Assembly: GCF_002105555.1 (NCBI RefSeq)
Contig: NZ_CP020612.1
Coordinates: 1,976,001 to 2,040,000 of the forward strand
Length of the DNA stretch: 64,000 nucleotides
Source: Paracoccus contaminans
GTDB taxonomy: Bacteria > Pseudomonadota > Alphaproteobacteria > Rhodobacterales > Rhodobacteraceae
Direction of reading: 5' to 3'
Shown here: piece after piece, positions 27,812 through 64,000 of the stretch
How the letters are laid out: each line of letters starts with the position of its first letter
Numbering within the stretch: position 1 is the stretch's first letter
Notes under the pieces: model-generated
What the model saw: the letters and a program-made list of their open reading frames with translations, nothing else
The model's database searches: none
What the model was told of the DNA's origin: nothing
Position numbers and translations under genes: made by a program

Positions 27812-27826
27812 GAACAGTCCGTGAAC
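27812..27826 (+). promoter_or_regulatory. SOS (LexA) box of recA
   Basis: GAAC-N7-GAAC, the alphaproteobacterial LexA box (GTTC-N7-GTTC on the other strand), 52 nt before the recA ATG. It overlaps a perfect 8-bp inverted repeat with 6-bp spacer, CAGTCCGT (27815-27822) and ACGGACTG (27829-27836), which could form a hairpin in the 5' leader. Confidence 0.8.
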
Positions 27827-33932: not shown

Positions 33933-35023
33933 TGAAAAACCCCGGCGGCATCATGGAATGTGACATTCTCATCATCGGCGGGGGTGTTGCAGGTCTTTCG
34001 GCTGCGGCCGAGATCGCCCCCTCGGCCAGCGTGATCCTTGTCGAAGCCGAGGATAGCCTGGCCTATCATGCCTCTGCCCGCTCGGCCGCGCTGTATGAGC
34101 CATATTACGGCCCGCCCGCGATCACCGAGCTGTCGCTTGCCTCGCGCGCATCGCTCGAGAATGCAGGGGTGCTTTCGGCGCGCGGAATGATGGTCGTGGC
34201 CTCTGCCGGAGAGCAGGCGGCCTTTGCGGCCGACATGGCGGCGATGCATCTGCGCGACATCACGCCCGATGAGGCGGCGGCGCTGTTCCCGGCGCTGGAC
34301 CCGGGACGGATCGCGCTGGCCGGGCATGGCGATCATGCCTGGGACATCGACACCGACCAGCTGGTCCAGTCGTTCGCGCGCAAGGCCCGCAGCCATGGCG
34401 CAACGATCATCACGCGGGCCGGGCTGACGGGCCTGCGGCGGCAGGGCAGCGCGTGGCAGGCGATTACGCGCGAGGGGCCGATAGCGGCCCGCATGGTCAT
34501 CAATGCCGCCGGGGCCTGGGCCGATGCCATCGGCCGGATGGCCGGCCTTGCCCCGATAGGGCTGGTGCCGCATCGCCGTTCGATGGCCCGCATCGCCGCG
34601 CCTGGCGGACTGGACCCGGCCGCCTGGCCGATGGTCATTGGTGCAGGCGAGAAATGGTATGCCAAGCCTGACGCGGGCGCGCTGATCGTCTCGCCCGCGG
34701 ACGCCGATGCGGTCGAGCCGCATGACGCCTGGGCCGACGACATGGTTCTGGCCGAGGGCCTTGCGCGTTACGAGGCGCTCAGCCGCTTTCAGGTCGAACG
34801 GCTGCTTGCCAGCTGGGCCGGCCTGCGCACCTTTTCCCCGGACGGAACCCCCATCTATGGGCGCGACGCTGCCGAGCCGTCATTCCTGTGGTTCGCGGGG
34901 CAGGGCGGCTATGGCTTTCAATCGGCGCCCGCCGCCGCGCGGTTCATTGCCGACATCGCCTTGGGGCGGGGCGTGGATCGGGCGCTGGGGGCGCTACTCT
35001 CGCCCGCCCGCTTCGCCCGCTGA
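33932..35023 (+). CDS. FAD-dependent oxidoreductase of the DAO family, D-arginine dehydrogenase-like
   Basis: 363 residues. FAD Rossmann motif [33 protein letters not shown] resembles the H-SGRSAAHY stretch of DauA, and the C-terminal GTPIYGRDA and [19 protein letters not shown] are typical. Probably deaminates a D-amino acid with electrons passed to the respiratory chain. Start ATG at 33932 is coupled to the upstream stop (TGATG); ATG at 33953 (MECDIL) gives the more usual N-terminus. Its 3' end overlaps the convergent aroC by 30 bp. Confidence 0.8.
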
Positions 35024-36121
35024 GCCGATCCGTCCCCGGACGCCGCCGGTCTGCGCGCGGTCCAGCAGCAGATGGTCGAGGATCACGCAGGCCGCCATCG
35101 CCTCGGCCACCGGGACGGCGCGGATGCCCACGCAGGGGTCGTGGCGACCCTTGGTGATCAGGTCGATCTCCTCGCCGGCCTGGTTGATGGTGCGGCGCGC
35201 GGTCAGGATCGAGCTGGTCGGCTTGACGGCGAAGCGCATGACGATGTCCTGCCCGGTCGTGATCCCGCCAAGGATGCCGCCGGCGTGGTTCGTGCCAAAG
35301 ACCGGGCCATCCGGCCCCATGCGGATTTCATCAGCATTTTCAGTGCCTTTCAGGCGGGCGGCGGTCATGCCCTCGCCGATCTCGACGCCCTTGACGGCGT
35401 TGATCGACATCATCGCCGCGGCAAGGTCGGTGTCGAGCTTGGCATAGACAGGGGCGCCGAGGCCGGGGGGGCAGCCGCGGATGGTGACCTCGATCACGGC
35501 GCCGATGCTGTCCTGGGCCTTGCGGATCTCGTTCAGATACGCGGTCCATTCGGGGACGGCGGCGGCGTCGGGCAAAAACAGGTCGTTGCGGTCGATTTCC
35601 GCAAAGTCGAAGCGGGCGCGGTCGGCGACCAGATCGCCCATCTGGACCATATAACCCGTGATGGTCAGCTGTTGCGCAAGCTGGCGCAGGACCGCGCGGG
35701 CGACGCCGCCGGCGGCGACGCGTGCGGCGGTTTCGCGGGCGGAGGATCGGCCACCGCCGCGATAGTCTCGGATTGCGTATTTCTGCCAATAGGTTATGTC
35801 GGCGTGGCCGGGGCGGAAGGCGGCCGCGATGTCGCCATAGTCGCGGCTGCGCTGATCGGTGTTCTCGATCATCAGCTGGATCGGGGTGCCGGTGGTGCGG
35901 CCCTCGAACACGCCGGACAGGATGCGGACCTGATCGGGTTCCTGCCGCTGGGTGGTCAGCTTGCTCTGGCCCGGGCGGCGGCGGTCGAGCCAGGGCTGAA
36001 TGTCTGATTCCGTTAGGGAAATTCCCGGCGGGCAGCCGTCGACGGTGGCGCCGAGGGCGGGGCCGTGGCTTTCGCCCCAGGTGGTGACGGTGAAGATGCG
36101 GCCGAAGGTGTTGAAGCTCAT
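34994..36121 (-). CDS. aroC: chorismate synthase
   Basis: 375 residues. Converts EPSP to chorismate with reduced FMN, the last shared step of aromatic amino-acid synthesis. The N-terminus [33 protein letters not shown] is the family signature (in two parts), followed by [50 protein letters not shown] and [20 protein letters not shown] at 36121 is chosen; the frame is open to 36256 but upstream sequence is the regulatory region with the GTTC array. Confidence 0.96.
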
Positions 36122-36224: not shown

Positions 36225-36261
36225 GTTCGGGGGATGTTCGTGCGGCGTTCATGCACGGTTC
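36225..36261 (+). promoter_or_regulatory. four tandem GTTC motifs at exact 11-bp spacing (overlapping SOS-type boxes)
   Basis: GTTC occurs at 36225, 36236, 36247 and 36258, each separated by exactly 7 bp, so every neighbouring pair is a perfect GTTC-N7-GTTC LexA box of the alphaproteobacterial type. The array lies in the 222-bp divergent gap between aroC (104 bp away) and the BrnA-like gene (82 bp away). Binding by LexA is inferred from the consensus; the 11-bp period puts all half sites on one helix face. Confidence 0.6.
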
Positions 36262-36285
36262 ATGCGAATGGCGCCGGGCGGGGGG

Positions 36286-36301
36286 TTAACGGGGCGTTAA
36301 C
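36286..36301 (+). promoter_or_regulatory. candidate CtrA binding site upstream of the BrnA-like gene
   Basis: TTAACGGGGCGTTAAC fits TTAA-N7-TTAAC exactly, and each half is part of a GTTAAC. It ends 42 nt before the ATG at 36344, a usual place for CtrA activation or repression, and lies 24 bp after the GTTC array. Confidence 0.6.
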
Positions 36302-36343: not shown

Positions 36344-36871
36344 ATGGCGCAGACGGGCAATCCGCGCGGCGGCGCGGCGGCGAAGGCCGAGGCGGCGCGG
36401 CGGGTCAATTACCACTACATGGCCGACGTGATGCGGCGGCTGGAATGGGATCTGCACCAGCGCATCCTGACCGAGGGGCGGGTGCCGGAGGCCTGGCACG
36501 CGCTGGCCCGCGAGCGGGGGGCGGGCAAGAAGGTGCGGGTGACGATCCTGGTCGAGGAGGAGGTGCTGCGCTTCTTCAAGTCGATGGGCGAGGGGTACGG
36601 GCCGCGGATGAACCGGGTGCTGGCCGGCTTCATGCACGCGCGGCTGGCAGGGCTGCTGGAGGGCGGCGAGACGATGGACTATCTGGCCCGCCGCGATCGC
36701 GAGGGTCTGGACGGGATGAAGCCGGGCTGGGGCGAGTCGCAGAAGATGTACGAGGTGCTGGGCCACGAGGGGGCGGAGCTGATGAGCGACGAGCCGGGGG
36801 TGCCGCTGGGGGAGGAGAAGGCGAGCCGGCGGGCGGACAAGATGGCGTGGTTGCGGGGGAGGGAGGAGTAG
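36344..36871 (+). CDS. orphan BrnA-like / DUF4415-type ribbon-helix-helix protein
   Basis: 175 residues. The middle part, KKVRVTILVEEEVLRFFKSMGEGY followed by GPRMNRVLAGFMHARLAGLL, resembles the BrnA antitoxin / DUF4415 core (beta-strand, then two helices) that binds DNA as a dimer. It is longer than a normal BrnA (about 80-110), with a basic N-terminal part and a charged C-terminal part. No BrnT toxin gene is adjacent, so it is more likely a regulator than half of a toxin-antitoxin pair. Its promoter carries SOS-type and CtrA-type motifs. The reverse-transcriptase insertion begins 18 bp after its stop. Confidence 0.65.
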   Translation: MAQTGNPRGGAAAKAEAARRVNYHYMADVMRRLEWDLHQRILTEGRVPEAWHALARERGAGKKVRVTILVEEEVLRFFKSMGEGYGPRMNRVLAGFMHARLAGLLEGGETMDYLARRDREGLDGMKPGWGESQKMYEVLGHEGAELMSDEPGVPLGEEKASRRADKMAWLRGREE

Positions 36872-36889: not shown

Positions 36890-38223
36890 CTACGTTGCAT
36901 CGATTAGCCCGCCGTAAACGCGTCGGACTTCTCGGTTCCAGCAGCTTTTGAACCACTTGTGGTGTCTCTTAATCTGTCGTTTCAGCGCGTCGTCGTTAAA
37001 AATTTTGGCTGCTCTGTAAACCTACTTAACGAAGTTTCTTCCACGCCCCAGGTGAGTATATCGGCTCAGTAACTGGCGTCTATACACCTGATTTGATGGA
37101 ATGCCTTTGGATTTTGCGGCAACCAATTTAGCATGGATTCCGCGGCGCATTTTTTTCCGATAGTTCGCCATTGATGATTCCCTCACCTGAACATGGCGAC
37201 CATCGAACGTGAACCCTAGATACTGGGCTGGTTTGTTCGGAGTCAGGCAAACACCACCGGAAAATTCTGATATCACGGTCTTTGTCGCGGAGAGGGCTAA
37301 ACCGTAAGCACTTAGAGCATCCGAGATATGTGTTAAAGCCGAGTCTACGTTTTCGCCTGGGGGCAACACTAGGCAATATCGTCCGAATATCTTCTGTAAC
37401 TAGCGCCTATCCGCTCTGCATAGGTGGACATGCGCTCATCAAACGTCAACATATATAGATTTGCATACATTCCGGATAAGGGCGTACCTTGAGGAATCCC
37501 GAATGGGTCAGCGTGCACCTTCACCAAGCCCGTTGTCTTTCGCACGTGCTTCTTGTATTCATCTGGAGTACACACACGCCCGCATCGACGACGTCTTTTG
37601 CCAAGAACAGCGTCAAGCGAATCTATGTCCACGGAGGCGTAGCGGGTCATCGCTCTGAATATTGTCCAGTGGTGTCCCAAGAGCTGGGTGCTCCCAAGCA
37701 ACTGCAATAGTTCATTTTTCAGGTGCGCATGCAGCAAGTTATCGAAAAAACCCGAAATATCGACGGCTAGCAACTTGCAGTCGGAACGTAAACGGATTTC
37801 GTCGAATAAGTCTTTCGCGTGATGAATATTTTAGCGTCCGCCCTTTCGATACGCAAGCACATACTTCGACAGGTTGCGGCGCCGAAGCTCAACTTCATAA
37901 GCTAGCGACAAAAAGGAAGCGTACGCCTCGAGATAGGCTGCATCCTTGTGCGCGGAAAATTTTATTGGTCTTTCCTTCGATTCTGTAAAGGCTACGCCAT
38001 CTGCGTTTTTCTTGACGCGTCGCTTGACCTCGCTGTAGGCCAGGAACGGATAAAACTGGTGGCGCTTGGTCTCTAATTCAAAATTAACACTAATAACCCT
38101 CGATGCTGCATTCAACTTGTCGTCAAAGTGCATGTAATTGCGCTCTTTGGCGAGGAAAGGACTCACCAAGTCGCCGGTTTGAGGGTCAACATCTTGCTCG
38201 GAGAGGAGGTCTAGCCCGGACAC
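36890..38223 (-). pseudogene. disrupted reverse transcriptase gene, possibly from an RT-based defence system
   Basis: Read on the minus strand, one RT of about 440 residues can be rebuilt across three lesions. It starts at GTG 38223 (MSGLDLLSEQDVDPQTG), then a TAA at 37831-37833 splits VLAYRKGGR from NIHHAKDLFDEIR in the same frame. Next come LLAVDISGFFDN, GIPQGTPLSGMYANLYM and the catalytic YSDDI; a one-base loss at about 37371 shifts the frame to VLPPGENVDSALTHISDALS. A TAG at 37022-37024 splits RGRNFVK from VYRAAKIFNDDALKRQ, and the frame ends at 36890. There is no maturase or HNH domain, so it is not a group II intron. The motifs recall RTs of unknown-group (DRT-like) or Abi type, without proof. 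GC content is clearly below the flanks, so it was acquired. Confidence 0.75.
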
Positions 38224-43275: not shown

Positions 43276-44631
43276 CTAAAGGCGGATATCGATTCGGGAG
43301 GGCGCAAGGATGGGGACAGGGGGAACGGGCGCCGGGGCTGGGGGCATGGCCGGCATCTGCGTCAGGTCGGCATCCGCCCCGGCCTGACGGGCGCGCCCGT
43401 CCCGCGCCTGTCCGCCGCCGGACCGGCTGTCCTGCCGCATGAAGTCGAGCCGGGCATCGGGCATGCCGTTCTCGTGCAGATCCTGCAGCAACTGGTCGCT
43501 GTGACGGCGGATCAGGTCGAGCGTTTCAAGCCGTTCGGCAAGGATGCCGAGGCCGCTTCGGTGATCGGTTCCAAGCAGAACGGTCACGCGGCCAAGCTCG
43601 ACGGGATCAAGCCGGATCTCGATGATGCCGTCATCCCGCGTGCGCACGATGGCGTCGGCCAGCTGCCGATGGGGGGCCGGGGCCTGCGCCTGAAAGGACG
43701 CTGGGGATGCCTCGGGCGGCGTGCCGTGCTGCGGCGCGGCGGGCCCTGCGGCGGGCAATTCGCCGCCGCCCGCGGCATGGATCGTCACCCCCAGCTGTCC
43801 GGCGGGCAGGAGGGCGGCCTGCGCGCCTGAACCGGGCAGCGGTGGGCGGGGCTGCGTGCCGCCATCGGGTTCGGCAGGCCCCGCCCCCTCATCCAGCCCA
43901 GCGCGCCCCGGCGCCCCGTCCGCATCGTCAGGCCGGCGCTGCGCCTTTGCGGCCTCATCTTCGCCAGGCCCTTGTTCCCCGTCAGTTCCCGGCGGTTCGC
44001 CGAGAAGGGTGCCTGCCTGCTGCGGCGGCGAGTCGGGGCGCTGGGTGGCCGGGGGCGTTTCGGCGCCTGCCCCTTCAGGGGTGGACGCCATCGGGGCGGC
44101 ATCCTCGGTTCCGGGCATGAAGGGGTCATCACCGCCTGTTTGCTCGGGCAGCATCGCCTCGCCCGATGGGCCATCGGGGGTTGCGCCATCCGCCCCGGCC
44201 GATGCGGGCCGGCCATCGGGCGCAGGGGCAGGCTCATCCAGGCCATCCTGCGCCGCCCCCGCGGGCCGGGCCGCATCCGGCGCGGCCTGGCAGGGGGCTG
44301 GCCAGGGCAGCGGCGCAAGCGGGCTGTCCGCAGGGCAGGCATCCCGGCGATCGGCCTGCTTCTCCTCGCGCTCGCCCGCATCGTCGGGCGCGACGACGTC
44401 CCTGGCCGAAGGGCGGGAGGCGGGCTCGGGCGCCTTGCTCGGGGGCTGGGGCGGCACAGTCGCCTGGCGGGGCGCGGGGGCCGGGGGGCGGGGCATGCGC
44501 CCCGCCATTGTCCTTGCAAACTCGGCCCCCGTTCCGGCCGGCGCCTGATGCGCGCTGCCCGTGCTGTTGCCGACCGCCGTCGAGAATAGGGATGAAACCT
44601 GCATTATCCTGTCCGAAGGAATCGCCTTCAT
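43276..44631 (-). CDS. fliK: flagellar hook-length control protein FliK
   Basis: 451 residues, very rich in Pro, Ala, Gly and Asp in residues about 45-320, as expected for the disordered ruler part of FliK. The C-terminal domain (about 325-410) has IIEIRLDPVELGRVTVLL and LDLIRRHSDQLLQDLHENG, the T3S4-type substrate-specificity switch. Secreted through the flagellar export apparatus and tells it to switch from hook to filament. Start ATG at 44631; an ATG at 44604 is also in frame. Divergent from the flgJ-like gene. Confidence 0.85.
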   Translation of the reverse strand: MKAIPSDRIMQVSSLFSTAVGNSTGSAHQAPAGTGAEFARTMAGRMPRPPAPAPRQATVPPQPPSKAPEPASRPSARDVVAPDDAGEREEKQADRRDACPADSPLAPLPWPAPCQAAPDAARPAGAAQDGLDEPAPAPDGRPASAGADGATPDGPSGEAMLPEQTGGDDPFMPGTEDAAPMASTPEGAGAETPPATQRPDSPPQQAGTLLGEPPGTDGEQGPGEDEAAKAQRRPDDADGAPGRAGLDEGAGPAEPDGGTQPRPPLPGSGAQAALLPAGQLGVTIHAAGGGELPAAGPAAPQHGTPPEASPASFQAQAPAPHRQLADAIVRTRDDGIIEIRLDPVELGRVTVLLGTDHRSGLGILAERLETLDLIRRHSDQLLQDLHENGMPDARLDFMRQDSRSGGGQARDGRARQAGADADLTQMPAMPPAPAPVPPVPILAPSRIDIRL

Positions 44632-63503: not shown

Positions 63504-64000
63504 ATGGCCCATCAGGTGATCGGCATCGGCAATGCGATCATGGACGTGATCGCCAGCGTCACGGATGACGCGCTTGAACGGCTTGGCGTGCGCAAGGGGA
63601 TCATGCAGCTGATCGACCGCGAACGCTCGGATGCGCTGACCGCGGCGGCCGGGGCATCGGGGCAGGGGCCGCGCCTCGTGCCCGGCGGATCGGTGGCCAA
63701 CACGCTGGCCGGGCTGGGGCGGCTGGGCCTGACCACCGCCTTCATCGGCCGGGTGGCCGACGACGATCTGGGCCGCAGCTATGCACAGGGCATGGCGGCG
63801 GACGGGACAGACTTTGTGAACCCGCCGGTGCCGGGGGGCAGCCTGCCGACCTCGCGCTCGATCATCCATGTCACGCCCGATGGCGAACGGTCGATGAACA
63901 CCTATCTGGGCATCTCGGCCGAGCTTGGCCCGGCGGAGGTGGACCCGTCGCTGTTTTCAGGCGGCACCTGGCTGTTCCTCGAAGGATATCTGTTCGACAA
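63504..64000 (+). CDS. PfkB family kinase, probable adenosine kinase, partial
   Basis: N-terminal 165 residues, cut by the window end. MAHQVIGIGNAIMDVIASVT, then PGGSVANTLAGLGRLG and FIGRVADDDLGRSYAQ are the ribokinase/PfkB signatures. Alphaproteobacterial proteins of this type are usually labelled adenosine kinase; the substrate is not proven because the C-terminal Asp motif is outside. GAAAGGAA lies 6-13 nt before the ATG. Confidence 0.85.
   Translation, partial: MAHQVIGIGNAIMDVIASVTDDALERLGVRKGIMQLIDRERSDALTAAAGASGQGPRLVPGGSVANTLAGLGRLGLTTAFIGRVADDDLGRSYAQGMAADGTDFVNPPVPGGSLPTSRSIIHVTPDGERSMNTYLGISAELGPAEVDPSLFSGGTWLFLEGYLFD

Follow-up and report, generated by a model that had tools for sequence, protein, structure and literature searches.

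A tandem 11-bp array in Paracoccus contaminans as a candidate operator of a BrnA-like ribbon-helix-helix protein

The window, a 64,000-nucleotide stretch of Paracoccus contaminans DNA, carries a tandem array of four 11-bp units (36225..36264, forward strand). Comparison with related sequences suggests that this array is very probably the operator of a BrnA-like ribbon-helix-helix (RHH) protein, the gene of which begins 80 bp downstream of it. The 11-bp period is conserved upstream of the relatives of this gene, whereas the GTTC word that first draws the eye is not.

The array and its 11-bp period

Direct reading of the sequence showed GTTC at 36225, 36236, 36247 and 36258 (GTTCGGGGGATGTTCGTGCGGCGTTCATGCACGGTTC at 36225-36261), and this agrees with the exact 11-bp spacing given in the initial annotation. 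The array lies where that annotation had placed it, between two divergent genes, aroC (chorismate synthase, 34994..36121, reverse strand, start at 36121) and the BrnA-like gene (36344..36871, forward strand). Six GTTC-N7-GTTC pairs were observed in the window against 0.76 expected, and three of the six are within the array. Among 400 windows of equal length simulated with a first-order Markov model, none had a triple or quadruple GTTC array, and the number of quadruple arrays expected from the GTTC frequency is 3.7 × 10−5.

The repeated word exceeds GTTC. The units are GTTCGGGGGAT (36225), GTTCGTGCGGC (36236), GTTCATGCACG (36247) and GTTCATGCGAA (36258, beginning with GTTCATG), and two of the four depart from GTTCATG. 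A scan of the window genome (3.03 Mb, 2 contigs) for multiple half sites, which the initial annotation had advised, found one further array of this kind at C1:1619428-1619478 (1501-1551 of locus L002), directly behind gltD (named by eye); a third GTTC triple, at 242950, has only GTTC in common with the window array. The gltD array holds four copies of the longer unit GTTCATGCNNN. Since this unit is clearly longer, the unit word is approximately GTTCATG plus a 4-bp spacer and not GTTC alone. The gltD site carries arrays in the window genome and in genomes G454 and G455 alike. The gltD array is more regular than the window array (units GTTCATGC), and it precedes a gene of no Pfam match (family unassigned), which is followed by gltB. 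The window genome is the weakest case of all: it has just two arrays, two units of the window array are imperfect, and its array network may therefore be decaying.

Relatives of the BrnA-like gene as a rule have an 11-bp tandem array upstream. The lag analysis started from 109 loci, of which 17 without the anchor motif and one that was too short were dropped, and 91 regions were kept (86 distinct, own included). With ties counted, no lag beat lag 11 in 60 of the 91 regions. Any other lag was best in 0-12 regions, and the 12 belong to the harmonic lag 22. The mean self-match at lag 11 was 21.2/33, compared with 15.2/33 in single-base shuffles. At least 22/33 matches were reached at lag 11 in 41 regions, at the harmonic lag 22 in 19, and at the other lags in 0 to 4.

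The array unit differs by lineage: it is GTTCATG in the window and CGTRCAC, SATGCAC, GTCTTSC, GTCTGGC or GTATGG elsewhere. The initial annotation had headlined a nested triple SOS box bound by LexA, and this is not supported, since the promoters of relatives keep the 11-bp period and swap GTTC for these and other words. Loss of the period in related genomes, named there among the refuting outcomes, is the opposite of what was found.

The arrays also accompany the BrnA-like gene across differing neighbourhoods, which further counters an SOS reading. The nearest relatives (L007 and L008) have aroC upstream, as in the window. The array stays with the gene beside other neighbours too: of 80 named loci, 15 have, by eye, a carB-like gene and, mostly in the Tabrizicola group, 10 have a DUF-type gene and 9 an xerC-like recombinase. 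aroC itself probably does not belong to the system of array and BrnA-like gene. In the window, the stretch between the BrnA-like gene and carB (37022-38223, reverse strand) resembles a broken reverse-transcriptase gene; it holds three consecutive short frames, two of them with partial RVT_1 matches under the curated cut-off.

The BrnA-like protein and covariation of its strand with the array core

The BrnA-like protein (175 aa) matches PF14384 with 38.4 bits (curated cut-off 26.1), and all 53 aligned relatives (own included) match this model with E up to 0.01. A match to the window protein was found in 18 of 61 genomes (own included), all of the same genus. The scan of named genomes gave at least 80 BrnA-like loci, and 86 were confirmed. 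At the family level, 153 of 394 genomes matched, many of them through the short domain alone. Among the best 120 of 485 hits, the source annotations read 'BrnA antitoxin family protein', 'BrnA antitoxin of type II toxin-antitoxin system', DUF4415 or hypothetical. No account of this protein family or its arrays was found in the open-licence PMC literature among the matches listed.

BrnA antitoxins of the brnTA type II toxin-antitoxin systems have the same Pfam domain, and BrnA-type antitoxins autoregulate. The window family is unlike them in having no BrnT-like gene, approximately 60-70 extra residues at each end, and a tandem array with a lineage-specific core. The BrnT search was a tblastn with two BrnT queries at E 1e-3, and by it neither the window gene nor L010 nor any of 80 relatives (neighbourhoods L055-L134, some cut by contig ends) had a BrnT-like neighbour, although a very diverged BrnT would escape it. 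The queries were taken from the pairs in L022 and L024 and matched those two loci alone. Because no BrnT-like gene was found alongside, the window protein probably does not function as an antitoxin. The name 'BrnA antitoxin family protein' is probably misleading for the family.

In the BrnA-like protein, the beta strand R65-V66-T67-I68-L69 is the proposed reading head, and structure models have helices at about 72-80 and 85-101. The domain model (a 54-residue piece) had a mean pLDDT of 85, with helices at 16-24 and 29-45, and in this lone monomer the strand is extended and unpaired. The full-length model was poor (mean pLDDT 56) and its structural matches were uninformative. The Foldseek search with the BrnA-like models gave no RHH match.

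The array core covaries with this strand. In an unbiased scan of 124 seven-residue windows of the protein against the array core, the RHH strand VRVTILV ranked first, with a partial r of 0.369 (median 0.05). The sample comprised 57 non-redundant loci at which an array was clear, from 60 with at least 20/33 matches; distances were taken over the five bases following the common GT, and the rest of the protein was regressed out. When loci were permuted, the maximum over all windows was at most 0.214, and none of 500 permutations reached 0.369. R65 was the best single protein column (0.53), and the runner-up had 0.26.

Residues 65, 67 and 69 of the strand largely predict the unit (108 distinct loci, four duplicates removed). 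SATGCAC was found in 12/12 loci with R65-T67-[A/C/G/S]69, GTCTTSC in 13/15 with N67 (2 no call), and GTCTGGC in 7/8 with K65-T67-R69 (the other one GTATGG). Loci with K-T-[A/G/S] had GTATGG in 4/5 (1 no call), those with R-T-R had CGTRCAC in 26/38 (8 no call, 4 of other type), and those with R-T-[L/M] had GTTCATG in 3/5 (2 no call). The remaining 25 loci carry rarer strands, with no call in 21. The rate of false array calls on shuffled upstream regions was 1/430. These recognition classes were named post hoc on the same data, and the blind part is the covariation scan with its permutation test.

Some observations count against the operator reading. An array was called at few of the loci where residue 67 is A, G or S, and the 8 uncalled R-T-R loci, the 4 R-T-R loci of another type, the two deviating window units and the lack of an RHH match by Foldseek weigh on the same side. 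In L101, L105, L108, L122, L125, L131, L134 and L145, one of these residues replaces T67, residue 69 is R, and no 11-bp array was called; in L125 and L134, other short repeats precede the BrnA-like gene.

The small-residue group with SATGCAC is spread over relatives of Paracoccus chinensis, Gemmobacter and Rhodobacter MAGs, and several other genera. This scatter over genera suggests that the SATGCAC type may have arisen repeatedly. In a tree built without the strand, the SATGCAC type changes 8 times against CGTRCAC, with few firm branches. The phylogenetically independent test on starred branches had 3 pairs only, all SATGCAC against CGTRCAC; 2 went in the expected direction, 0 in the opposite, and 1 showed no difference. 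Because few branches are firm, this test is underpowered.

For an operator of the RHH protein, we propose that RHH dimers would occupy successive 11-bp units and, as the units are one helical turn apart, would all lie on the same side of the helix. The 7-bp core of each unit would be read by the beta strand, through residues 65, 67 and 69. Neighbouring dimers may touch each other, which would make occupancy cooperative. This predicted cooperative binding fits an alternative that the initial annotation had also offered, in which the array marks another regulator that shares the half site. At its own promoter, the protein would act in (auto)regulation, most likely as repression or tuning.

Dispersed arrays in other genomes

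Arrays with the matching core are dispersed over the genomes of relatives. Three core patterns were scanned in 18 genomes picked by promoter type (up to one mismatch, overlapping hits counted). The type of the own promoter gave 8-79 hits, the other types 0-3, and the same three patterns reversed 0-4. The SATGCAC pattern had 30 hits in G019, where it is the own type; it also had 9 in G235, each with one mismatch, 2 in the window genome and 1 in G459. G235 had 95 hits of its own type, and that pattern had 0-2 hits elsewhere. In most relatives looked at, the dispersed arrays match the genome's own core, and the window genome retains only one extra array, that behind gltD.

Distinct array loci, own promoter counted, numbered 26 in P. 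sanguinis (G454), 22 in G455 after one scattered one-mismatch hit was removed, 29 in P. mutanolyticus (G459), 43 in G235 after removal of five singletons, and 9 in G005. A core-free scan (23/33 at lag 11), which finds 20/25, 27/27 and 12/21 of known arrays, gave 4 hits in 400 kb of G235 and 1 in 240 kb of G459, both with the gene; the G459 hit is not among the own-type arrays. In genomes without a hit to the window protein, the same scan, which misses many arrays, gave 1 hit each in 400 kb of G035 (L326:5811) and of G006 (L352:12963). One 11-bp array in G235 (L383:16573) is built of another word, CATCCGTCC, the genome's own type being CGTCTGG, and is possibly the site of a second regulator.

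The placement of arrays in four genomes was classed with a crude codon-usage gene finder, which erred in places (the own promoter array of G459 was called convergent, for example). Of 80 loci fetched, L239 and L258 had no pattern hit; among the other 78 arrays, 70 were intergenic, 6 inside genes and 2 open. The intergenic arrays were tandem (34), convergent (20) or divergent (16), which is near the proportions of intergenic DNA at large (0.45/0.27/0.27 by length). At the other loci of G459, the finder put 3 of 17 arrays within genes, and by eye at least one other, L291, looks intragenic as well. A promoter regulon was rejected, the placement being mostly intergenic and indifferent to gene direction.

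For the chromosomal position tests, the origin was placed by parS, and chromosomes were taken as circular, the terminus lying across from parS. From G235, five one-mismatch singletons were left out, two such singletons (in G025 and G019) stayed in, arrays on other contigs were excluded (two in C2 of G025), and the 4.156 Mb of G235 was taken as 4.2 Mb. Over six chromosomes, 18 of 123 arrays fell in the terminus-proximal quarter; there is no terminus enrichment, and a terminus organiser was rejected. Arrays pointed toward the origin in 73 of 123 cases (p 0.047), with 21/29 in P. mutanolyticus, 10/19 in G022 and 3/9 in G005. The origin half held 78/123 arrays (p 0.004), and the best-sampled genome, G235, was even (22/43). 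We regard array polarity and origin bias as hints only. The GC skew of G459 over 20 stretches was too noisy; it put the origin at about 1.0-1.2 Mb, compared with 1.5 Mb by parS.

The arrays might instead be a dispersed REP-like repeat family spread by copying, with the BrnA-like protein as a host-encoded handler or a mobile-element relic and the promoter copy as one insertion. We consider this possible but rather unlikely. In P. albicereus (G461), most of the 27 copies lie within a dispersed repeat of approximately 120 bp. Array positions are mostly unshared between genomes, and copying would be the easiest route to concerted switching of tens of sites. Against this, conservation in G454 and G455 is limited to the array and its immediate flank; before a few tens of bases have passed, it is down to approximately 0.2-0.3 bits per base. 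Some positions are also common to genomes: besides the gltD site, there are about five array places common to G454 (25) and G455 (21), two to G454 and G461, two to G461 and G467, and one to G454 and G467. At the sensitivity used, relatives of the gene were not found on mobile DNA either, with no match among 72,556 plasmids and no confirmed viral contig. Spread by copying need not exclude the array being an RHH operator. The G461 repeats (L215-L234 and L268-L274) carry CAGCGCAACACC and CCAGCATTTGCTGG blocks upstream, and many copies have a GGCGGGGATATTT tail.

The CtrA-type box and other regulators

A TTAA-N7-TTAA box at 36286..36300 (forward strand) lies between the array and the BrnA-like gene and has the form of the CtrA full site, as given in the cited part of PMC6180460. 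The last 220 bp preceding the conserved NYHYMAD codons were scanned in 86 promoter regions (own included). The box was perfect in 27 and had at most one mismatch in 42, compared with 0.025 and 0.6 in single-base shuffles. It is therefore a conserved promoter element and, by its sequence, a candidate CtrA site, which probably drives or gates the BrnA-like gene. At dispersed arrays, CtrA-type boxes were found in 1 of 68 cases in G454, G455, G459 and G467 together, in 16/27 in G461, and at two of the three G235 arrays sampled.

The array itself could be read as the site of an OmpR-family response regulator, either CenR, with the motif TGA-N8-TGA in the cited part of PMC9275681, or CtrA with degenerate half sites. 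Regulators of this family recognise direct repeats spaced by one helical turn, and the CtrA full site adjoins the array. One TCA-N8-TCA pair in the window (36249/36260, by eye) is the reverse of the CenR motif, and the gltD array holds more such pairs. This reading is nevertheless highly improbable: the cores CGTRCAC, GTCTTSC and GTCTGGC are without TCA or TTAA, and by eye the CenR motif is absent from all three. Moreover, the core tracks the BrnA-like strand, which neither CenR nor CtrA explains, and CtrA-type boxes are rare at the dispersed arrays of four genomes, though not in G461 or the small G235 sample. The least credible reading is a nested LexA/SOS operator, in which LexA dimers on three overlapping GTTC-N7-GTTC sites would regulate aroC or the BrnA-like gene: the three pairs are perfect and of the form reported for the alphaproteobacterial LexA box (PMC8565304, in the part cited), but the equivalent site of relatives keeps the 11-bp period without a conserved GTTC, the arrays are neither numbered nor placed as such a reading would require (in P. 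sanguinis, the 25 loci other than the own promoter are mostly intergenic and without promoter orientation), and recA (named by eye) carries an ordinary single LexA-type pair upstream, at the expected place (27812..27826, reverse strand).

Further single GTTC-N7-GTTC pairs at 43974-43988 (forward strand) and 63885-63899 (reverse strand) are possible ordinary LexA sites or chance. In P. sanguinis and similar Paracoccus species, scans for the GTTC-N7-GTTC LexA box will catch many of these arrays.

Comparable systems and biological meaning

The fold of MatP is RHH. Both MatP and the archaeal RHH protein SegB have tens of dispersed chromosomal sites, according to the parts cited of PMC7188993 and PMC12284271, and the BrnA-like family resembles them in its predicted sites. 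SegB, moreover, binds DNA upstream of its own operon, but its sites are palindromic, alike across genera and mostly inside genes, as described in the same part of PMC12284271. The matS sites differ in being confined to the terminus region (PMC7188993, part cited), where the arrays of the window family are not enriched. ZapT, presented in the cited parts of PMC7188993 and PMC7858052 as a MerR protein without a known motif, was dropped as a comparison. A further likeness is to CdbA of Myxococcus xanthus, an RHH nucleoid-associated protein (PMC7156744, part cited): the predicted sites of the window family are of the CdbA type, being direct repeats with a 4-bp spacer that are dispersed and intergenic-enriched.

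By analogy with CdbA, the dispersed arrays are perhaps chromosome-architecture sites, a role suggested by their being mostly intergenic and not oriented as promoters. We tentatively speculate, at somewhat less than even confidence, that a CtrA-linked RHH protein nucleates on intergenic 11-bp arrays and that this system, widespread in Rhodobacteraceae, would organise the chromosome or mark the nucleoid. In each lineage, the strand and approximately 8-43 sites would have been switched together, leaving a legible RHH code, and in the window genome the network would have collapsed to the own promoter and one site.

With the array read as an operator of the BrnA-like RHH protein, an apparent SOS box becomes a natural experiment in protein-DNA recognition, in which one RHH family has passed through many lineages with a short reading strand. 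Since each genome scanned has matching dispersed sites, the recognition code would be readable from sequence. It also raises the question of how tens of dispersed sites change together with the specificity of the binding protein, whether by copying or by point mutation.
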